A stretch of 64,000 nucleotides of DNA from Desulfurivibrio dismutans (GTDB taxonomy: Bacteria > Desulfobacterota > Desulfobulbia > Desulfobulbales > Desulfurivibrionaceae). The notes under the pieces are model-generated. The model made no database searches. It saw only the letters and a program-made list of their open reading frames with translations, and was not told the origin of the DNA. This document shows, one piece after another, positions 46,012-47,831 of the stretch. The DNA lies in NCBI RefSeq assembly GCF_029210385.1, contig NZ_JARGDQ010000002.1, positions 1-64,000 on the forward strand, given 5' to 3'. The translations under genes were made by a program, and so were the position numbers. How positions within the stretch are numbered: position 1 is the first letter of the stretch; every line of letters begins with the position of its first letter.

Positions 46012-46045
46012 TTGACAGCCGACCTCGATATAAATACATTTGTAT
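46012..46045 (+). promoter_or_regulatory. Promoter with operator-like palindrome, upstream of dsrE selenoprotein gene
   Basis: TTGACA (46012-46017) and TACATT (46035-46040) are 17 bp apart. The -10 box lies in the dyad ATACATTTGTAT (46034-46045). The same arrangement occurs at 49536-49564. A repressor bound here would block the polymerase; the BigR-like ArsR at 43504 is the obvious candidate. Confidence 0.65.
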
Positions 46046-46103
46046 ATGTTGAATTTGACTGGCGCAGGCTCAAGCGCAAAACTTCACCATCAGGAGGTGC
46101 ATT

Positions 46104-46424
46104 ATGAGCTGGCTGTTCATTGTGGCGACCAACGACGCCGAAACCGTGTTCAATGCCGCCCGGCTGGCCAATGCCAGTATAAAAAAGGGCAAGGAAGTCA
46201 ACATGTTCATGCTGGGCAAGGGGGTGGAGTATGAGCAGATCGGCACCCCGGAGTTTGACGTTAATGGGCAACTGGCCGAATTCGACCAGTTGGGAGGCAA
46301 CTTTCTGGTCTGAGGCAGCTGCGTAAAATCCCGTGGTCTTACGGGATCAGCCTCCTGCCCCCTTGGCGTGATGACCGATCTTTATGATATGATCGAGGAA
46401 AGCGAACGGGTTTTCACTTTTTAA
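46104..46424 (+). CDS. DsrE-family selenoprotein (in-frame TGA as Sec70)
   Basis: Translation as usual stops at the TGA at 46311-46313, after GGNFLV, which would leave a 69-residue protein lacking the functional half. Reading TGA as selenocysteine gives U-G-S-C and continues with KSRGLTGSASCPLGVMTDLYDM and a terminal SERVFTF to the TAA at 46422, a normal 106-residue DsrE-like protein. The C-terminal part is what cysteine homologues have (CxxC, then a later Cys). A hairpin with a GGTCTT loop follows the TGA. DsrE proteins handle sulfane sulfur. An AGGAGG-type site precedes the ATG. Confidence 0.88.
46328..46347 (+). promoter_or_regulatory. Bacterial SECIS element of the dsrE selenoprotein gene
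   Basis: ATCCCGT (46328-46334) and ACGGGAT (46341-46347) form a perfect 7-bp stem with the loop GGTCTT, beginning 15 bases after the TGA. The loop matches the GGUCU of the E. coli fdhF SECIS that SelB binds, and the distance is within the known range. Confidence 0.85.
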
Positions 46425-46484
46425 CCAGCCGGCGGCGCAAACGCCTTAAGGGCGGCCTCGGCAACGGCAATCCCGACCGCAACC

Positions 46485-46516
46485 GGGGACAGATTTGAGA
46501 TTTTAAATCTGTCCCC
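46485..46516. repeat. GGGGACAGATTT inverted repeat
   Basis: GGGGACAGATTT and AAATCTGTCCCC form a perfect 12-bp stem with an eight-base loop. A half copy lies at 392-402 and a variant at 7123-7178, so this is a dispersed REP-like unit. It lies between the dsrE selenoprotein and SQR genes and may also act as a terminator. Confidence 0.8.
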
Positions 46517-46625
46517 GATTGCACGTTTAAGCTGACCCGATCGCCACCAGTGGTGGCGCCCCTTTTCCGCTTACGGTGAATTCGGGCCACCGGGCCGCCA
46601 CCCTCAACCAAATTCTGGAGACAAC

Positions 46626-47831
46626 ATGGGCAACGGCAAAAAAATCCTGGTGCTGGGCGGCTCCTTCGGCGGCCTAACCGCCGCCATGGAGATTAAGCGC
46701 CGGCTCGGCAACAAAGCCGAGGTCACGATAATCAGCAAGGACGACCACTTTGTCTTTTTGCCCTCCCTGCCCTGGCTGGTCACCGGCCACCGGACGGGAG
46801 AACGGCTTTCCCTGCCGTTGAGCCGGATACTGCCGCCCCGGCGGATCGAGTTTATCCGGGCCTCGGTCAAGGGAGTTGATCCGGCGGCCCAGCAGGTGCA
46901 AACCGACCAGGGAGCGCACGGTTACGATTACCTGGTGATTGCCACCGGCCCGCACCTGGCCTGTGAGGAAATCCGGGGCCTGGGGCCGGAGCAGGGTTTC
47001 ACCCACTGTGTCTTCTCCCTGGAAAACGCCCGGCAGGCCAAAGCCGCCTGGGAAAAGCTGCTGGCCGACCCCGGCCCGGTGGTGCTGGGCTCCACCCAGT
47101 TCGCCAGTTGCTTCGGACCCTACTACGAACTGGCCTTCGAGCTGGATTACCAACTGCGCCGCCGCAAGCTGCGCCACAAGGTACCCATGGTTTACCTCAG
47201 CTCCGAGCCTTATCCGGGCCACATGGGCATCGACGGCGTGGGCCGCTCCCGCCGCTTCATCGAGGACGAATTTGCCGAGCGAGACATCAAAACGGTGGTC
47301 AACCAGTCGGTGGCCGGTATCGAAGCCAACACCATCCATTTGGCCGACGGCTCCACCCTGCCCTTCAAGCTGGCCATGCTGGCCCCGCCCTTCAAGGGGG
47401 TGGGAGGGGTGGCGGAGCTGGGCAACCCCCGGGGCTTTATCCCGGTGGACCAACATTACCGCCACCCGCAGCACCCCAATATTTACACCGTGGGAGTGGC
47501 GGCGTCCCTGGCCCCCCGGGAACCGACCCCGGTGCCCACCGGGGTGCCGAAAACCGGTTACATGACGGTCAAGATGGCCCAAACGGCGGCGGCCCACCTG
47601 GCCGCCGAGATCGATAACCGCCCGTCCCCGGCCGGTCTGGCCATCGACGAGCTAACGGTGATCTGCATGCTGGACATGGGCAACACCGCCACCCTGATGC
47701 TGGCCGACCCCATCCTGCCGCCGCGCCAACGCACCATCCTGCACAAAAAGCGCTGGGTCCGCTGGGCCAAGGCGGGGCTGGAACGTTATTTTCTCTGGAA
47801 GATGCGCCACGGTCGTAGTAATCTACCCTGA
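46626..47831 (+). CDS. FAD-dependent sulfide:quinone oxidoreductase-like protein
   Basis: The 401-residue product begins ILVLGGSFGGLTAAMEI, the FAD-binding GxGxxG-type loop, continues with YDYLVIATGPHLACEEI and a second dinucleotide-type motif near residue 150 (VVLGSTQFASCFGPYYE, with a cysteine), and has the C-terminal IYTVGVAASL FAD motif and VPKTGYMTVKMAQTAA. This is the SQR/flavocytochrome c sulfide dehydrogenase family, which oxidises sulfide and reduces quinone. Two further SQR-type cysteines are not certain, so the exact type is open. It follows the DsrE selenoprotein. Confidence 0.8.
   Translation: MGNGKKILVLGGSFGGLTAAMEIKRRLGNKAEVTIISKDDHFVFLPSLPWLVTGHRTGERLSLPLSRILPPRRIEFIRASVKGVDPAAQQVQTDQGAHGYDYLVIATGPHLACEEIRGLGPEQGFTHCVFSLENARQAKAAWEKLLADPGPVVLGSTQFASCFGPYYELAFELDYQLRRRKLRHKVPMVYLSSEPYPGHMGIDGVGRSRRFIEDEFAERDIKTVVNQSVAGIEANTIHLADGSTLPFKLAMLAPPFKGVGGVAELGNPRGFIPVDQHYRHPQHPNIYTVGVAASLAPREPTPVPTGVPKTGYMTVKMAQTAAAHLAAEIDNRPSPAGLAIDELTVICMLDMGNTATLMLADPILPPRQRTILHKKRWVRWAKAGLERYFLWKMRHGRSNLP

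Follow-up and report, generated by a model that had tools for sequence, protein, structure and literature searches.

Does the in-frame TGA of a DsrE-family gene in Desulfurivibrio dismutans end the protein or encode selenocysteine (Sec), and what would a selenoprotein of this kind do? The gene lies within the 64,000-nucleotide stretch of DNA that we analyzed (hereafter, the window) and runs from an ATG at 46104, through a TGA at 46311-46313, to a terminal TAA at 46422-46424. Under the plain table-11 reading, the uninterrupted open reading frame comprises 69 amino acids. When the TGA is translated as U, the protein has 106 residues: the first 69, then U70-G-S-C73, with 36 residues after U70. 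The initial annotation had pointed to the 69-residue plain frame, the TGA at 46311, the U-G-S-C motif, and the 36 further residues, all of which the sequence bears out. Its 7-bp hairpin with a GGTCTT loop is likewise present, with its first base being the 15th after the TGA. The features of the gene and its signals are:

46104..46424, + strand: predicted selenoprotein gene of the DsrE family, encoding 106 residues, the 70th being Sec; Pfam DsrE match of 41.4 bits, relatives with a likewise placed TGA
46311..46313, + strand: TGA codon, predicted selenocysteine U70 of U-G-S-C; TGA in 61 of 62 relatives, Cys in Cys homologues
46328..46347, + strand: putative bacterial SECIS hairpin, 7 bp, loop GGTCTT; fold of -10.8 kcal/mol, covarying stem in 69 distinct sequences
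46092..46103, + strand: ribosome-binding site (AGGAGG) and spacer upstream of the start codon, read directly; most homologues have similar purine-rich sites
46012..46040, + strand: possible sigma-70-type promoter, TTGACA-17-TACATT, from a consensus scan only

Were the TGA a true stop, as the table-11 reading has it, the locus would hold a truncated 69-residue DsrE or a decaying pseudogene. Against this stands the retention of the TGA and of the 36 codons downstream across the phylum and into Nitrospirota. Searching the class yielded 51 DsrE matches, from 48 of 258 genomes; in 47 there is a single TGA, two others are Cys forms of full length, and the last two are partial. A second, independent scan, over named genomes, recovered 62 loci with DsrE relatives, hosted by Desulfobulbaceae, Desulfobacterales, Syntrophobacterales, a Desulfovibrio, and several Nitrospirota. 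Codon 70 was readable for 62 DsrE matches (60 loci) and is TGA in 61; the sole TGC belongs to a Cys paralogue adjoining a Sec copy. A phylum search with a Cys copy as the query still returned mainly TGA copies. Change downstream of the TGA is also biased to third codon positions, which account for 12 of the 14 base differences from the nearest relative, and these 36 codons look to be under purifying selection. No copy was found in two genomes of the same genus, one of them merely 77% complete.

Two further observations concern individual loci. Tandem dsrE copies, a Cys copy immediately followed by a Sec copy, occur at L065/L097 (G046) and L156 (G497). Frames disrupted near the site, by frameshift or sequencing error, were seen in metagenome assemblies (L149 4001-4307 and L121 4001-4309).

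The hairpin, ATCCCGT-GGTCTT-ACGGGAT, folds with a shuffle z-score of -3.5. By itself it is weak evidence, since among the 1700 TGA triplets of the window, both strands counted, 20 are followed at a similar distance by a perfect stem of 7 bp or more, and in 10 of these the loop contains GG; that such hairpins are not rare in the window speaks, if anything, for a true stop. Chance is excluded because relatives conserve the TGA as well as the stem and the protein sequence beyond the TGA. Across 69 distinct sequences, 89.4% of the stem cells are paired, and changes on both sides of the stem occur in 34 cells, whereas 500 shuffles, which retain relatedness, averaged 6.6 such cells and never exceeded 13. 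Sliding the stem by one to three columns lowers the pairing to 26-50%. In one compensatory change, TCC...GGA becomes GCC...GGC, with the third base of a Gly codon tracking the stem. Protein constraint alone would hardly produce such changes, and the SECIS proposed initially appears as a covarying stem at the expected bacterial position. At one stem position (columns 23-32), 25 of the 69 distinct sequences show an A-A mismatch. The loop GG comes from codon 78, which encodes Gly in 30 of 31 Sec copies; the four Cys homologues compared have Gln, Asn, or Asp instead. Since Gly is near-invariant in the Sec copies and replaced in the Cys homologues, the RNA may constrain the protein here.

An Rfam scan of the site at a permissive E-value reported no SECIS, and its best matches, to miRNAs, were chance matches on a nearby inverted repeat. 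The intergenic region between dsrE and the SQR-like gene (46479-46522) carries an 18-bp inverted repeat, 94% complementary with an 8-base spacer (GGGGACAGATTT..AAATCTGTCCCC), which resembles a REP or MITE-type element.

The host genome (99.99% complete) encodes the complete Sec machinery: selA (638 bits), selB (358 bits), a tRNA-Sec gene with the anticodon TCA, and selD, with one in-frame TGA of its own. The search for selA, selB, selC, and selD suggested at the outset therefore recovered all four, selC as tRNA-Sec. This machinery, together with the covarying SECIS at the expected bacterial site, argues against decoding of the TGA as Trp or Cys, or its non-specific read-through. A Cys reading would match the homologous residue: as had been anticipated, alignment places Cys at position 70 in haloarchaeal and other Cys homologues, the haloarchaeal ones being plasmid-borne, 35-39% identical, and annotated “DsrE family protein”. 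Trp was seen at this column in none of the homologues compared. Conservation, the Sec machinery, and the covarying SECIS led us to reject both the pseudogene and the alternative code; we regard a true stop as very improbable and non-Sec decoding as equally so.

We are almost certain, judging from sequence, that 46104-46424 encodes a DsrE-family selenoprotein whose TGA is read as Sec. SelB and Sec-tRNA(Sec) would decode the UGA at codon 70, guided by the hairpin just downstream, and the ribosome would release a 106-residue product with U70-x-x-C73 and a third conserved Cys, Cys85.

Family membership, also claimed initially, holds over the whole length once the TGA is read through: Pfam DsrE (PF02635) matches residues 4-106, across the TGA, with 41.4 bits against a cut-off of 22.7 (E = 1.8e-10), and a six-frame genome search recovered the same stretch with one TGA. 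An AlphaFold model built on a 35-sequence alignment (AF2) reached a pLDDT of 94.4; the single-sequence model was poor (pLDDT 49). The predicted structure is a clear DsrE/YchN fold. Its structural matches include 3mc3 (Z 16.8), E. coli YchN (1jx7, Z 15.7), 3pnx (Z 14.6), DsrE (2hy5_A, Z 13.8), and TusD (2d1p_A, Z 13.7); ten solved chains of the DsrE-type fold lie at Z 13-17 and other folds below 8. With the single window sequence, phmmer found no match in the PDB; a profile gave YchN as the only significant match (E = 2e-4) and aligned U70-x-x-C73 with the CKTC of YchN. The two proteins are 20% identical and share the fold, with a CxxC at the U-x-x-C position; YchN has Cys where the window protein has Sec. 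Both C73 and C85 are invariant across the 31 Sec copies compared. A phage search returned no match.

Proteins of this kind are already known, in keeping with the initial remark that DsrE-like Sec proteins had been reported (PMC1088965, PMC1794560, PMC13188914). In the parts of these sources available to us, DsrE-like U-x-x-C selenoproteins are described from the Sargasso Sea set, and hence since 2005 (PMC1088965), from D. vulgaris (PMC1794560), from GOS data (PMC2398784), and in a 2026 review table (PMC13188914). Those from Desulfovibrio and marine metagenomes share with ours, as far as these parts describe them, the PF02635 domain, the U-x-x-C motif, and a bacterial SECIS, the features on which we liken them. 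The surveys, in the same parts, hold few DsrE-like Sec sequences (one in 2006) and make no mention of the SQR-like and ArsR neighborhood. What is new here is the extent of Sec in this DsrE group, for which it is the norm among sulfate reducers, and the gene neighborhood.

Among Cys-containing relatives, YedF (TIGR03527) combines a DsrE domain bearing CGxC with a SirA domain, whereas the window protein has a DsrE domain only, 106 residues, and Sec. Weak NCBIfam similarity to YedF appears in 15 of 35 relatives of the window protein, and a separate YedF-like gene lies elsewhere in the host genome (C23:28178-28441). Scanning the window protein itself against NCBIfam gave no matching model, TIGR03527 included, so that its truncation by automated annotation, as had been foreseen, is plausible.

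A tree of 72 rows placed all 49 U-x-x-C Sec rows in one clade (support 100/99); the alignment spans 106 columns, and many inner forks are unresolved. The Sec and Cys labels require three changes on this tree, as would be expected if Sec had arisen separately in two more distant subfamilies. One of these, a second DsrE selenoprotein subfamily (L079-L090, e.g., L083, L084, and L086), has the signature LLA-U-G-K-[LC]-LDLHGV, is 26-35% identical to the window protein, carries its own SECIS (CCTCCACGG..GTGGAGG), and in many copies has lost the second Cys (UGKL for UGKC). Clustering of its neighbors gave no gene common to at least three loci. The published selenoprotein tables, in the parts available to us, list DsrE with U-x-x-C only. 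A third DsrE-type group (L161 and L170, from G625 and G554) shows a U-K-K-A context, YG-U-KKAL-MHGVH, and by the tree is a separate Sec origin. In a recent study, 0.7% of DsrE type II sequences were without the active Cys, which was ascribed to sequencing errors (PMC13293266); some of these might be Sec codons.

Three genes downstream of dsrE recur at related loci:

46626..47831, + strand: SQR-like flavoprotein (Pyr_redox_2), recurring neighbor; Pfam 63 bits
47932..48267, + strand: ArsR-family regulator, recurring neighbor; Pfam HTH_5 50 bits
48614..48850, + strand: 78-residue conserved protein (MCQ-LVHKVA...), companion of the ArsR gene; no Pfam match

The initial description of the adjacent enzyme as SQR-like held at the level of Pyr_redox_2 (63 bits); against NF049943, a type III SQR model for the selenoprotein subtype only, the enzyme scored 93 bits, with a cut-off of 525. 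An SQR-like gene lies just downstream of dsrE in 10 of the 21 regions compared, one with a Cys dsrE. In a wider set it was found at 7 of 60 loci, all of the Desulfobulbales-type group. Outside this group, most dsrE copies lack an SQR-like gene within about 4 kb, which leaves an obligate SQR partnership unsupported; by sequence comparison, the pairing is real but lineage-limited. The ArsR gene (8 of 21 regions; 15 loci of the wider set, a few being weak matches) and the gene for the 78-residue protein (relatives at 12 loci of the wider set) are spread more widely near dsrE than the SQR-like gene, in many Desulfobacterota. Other neighbors include two-component, DnaJ-like, rhodanese, and MMPL genes, with a DnaJ-like ORF and a rhodanese gene located downstream. 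No DsrF- or DsrH-like (tusC/tusB) gene was detected beside dsrE in a Pfam scan of the neighboring genes.

Sequence comparison thus supports the frame, the Sec codon at the position of the DsrE active-site Cys, the SECIS, the sel machinery, the predicted fold, and the recurrent SQR-like neighbor. The best explanation of the whole is very probably a Sec-containing DsrE made via SECIS and acting as a putative sulfane-sulfur acceptor, a role that we infer from the position of Sec70. Homology and gene neighborhood suggest the following mechanism. Sec70 would attack a sulfane sulfur, from polysulfide or from a persulfide presented by the SQR-like enzyme, a rhodanese, or TusA, and retain it in the form of a selenenyl sulfide (Se-SH), from which it would next be handed to an acceptor thiol; alternatively, Cys73, a possible resolving thiol, would close a Se-S bond and sulfide would be released. 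The outcome would be cytoplasmic sulfur transfer or persulfide reduction in a sulfur-cycling Desulfobulbales bacterium. That Sec may make this a faster sulfur acceptor, as proposed initially, follows from chemical reasoning only.

By analogy with characterized relatives, we give sulfur carrying an even chance of being the main function of the Sec-containing DsrE. U-x-x-C and CGxC are classic redox motifs, and a protein with a U70/C73 pair might instead be a selenium-containing reductase of the thiol-disulfide type, removing polysulfide or another oxidant rather than carrying sulfur to a pathway. We consider this a distinct possibility: its motif is of the redox type, no variation at C73 or C85 was seen among the 31 Sec copies compared, and a like guess was made for the CGxC of YedF (PMC5322559). 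However, DsrE relatives that have been tested bear sulfur on the active-site Cys: Cys78 of A. vinosum DsrE carries persulfide sulfur to DsrC (PMC3397948), and Cys67 is the sulfur-carrying residue of cable bacteria DsrE type II, with TusA (PMC13293266). The reductase is also at odds with the distant UGKL subfamily, many copies of which have lost C73, so the U70/C73 pair is not always needed.

More speculatively, sulfur-cycling Desulfobacterota could have a dedicated, selenium-dependent sulfur relay made up of the Sec-containing DsrE and the SQR-like flavoprotein; in the cytoplasm, Sec70 would accept zero-valent sulfur from the flavoprotein and pass it into the reversible Dsr pathway. We think this improbable at present. 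A DsrE gene adjoining an SQR gene is known from the DsrE4 group (Metallosphaera cuprina Mcup_1724; PMC4175335). Compared by gene order and residue, DsrE4 is encoded downstream of SQR and has Cys, whereas the window dsrE precedes its SQR-like neighbor and encodes Sec. Relays involving SQR, rhodanese, and DsrE-like proteins are considered in the cable bacteria papers, which make no mention of selenium. D. alkaliphilus is without canonical dsrEFH and expresses sqr weakly (PMC5516251). If true, the relay would help explain sulfur oxidation or disproportionation by Desulfurivibrio-like organisms without canonical DsrEFH.

That the protein is instead the DsrE subunit of a DsrEFH complex, type I or II, is highly unlikely and was rejected, as DsrE of DsrEFH (2hy5) and TusD of TusBCD (2d1p) share its fold, with a sulfur-carrying active-site Cys in the same region, but are heterohexamer subunits, whereas the Pfam scan of the neighboring genes showed no DsrF or DsrH partner gene beside the window gene.

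The Sec-containing DsrE adds a well-supported selenoprotein to a sulfur-cycling lineage, and selenocysteine emerges as the rule rather than the exception for this DsrE group across Desulfobacterota and some Nitrospirota. Because no NCBIfam model matches, the proteins of the group have probably been shortened or missed in annotation and omitted from comparisons of sulfur metabolism. Their selenocysteine indicates a testable selenium requirement in the handling of sulfide and polysulfide.
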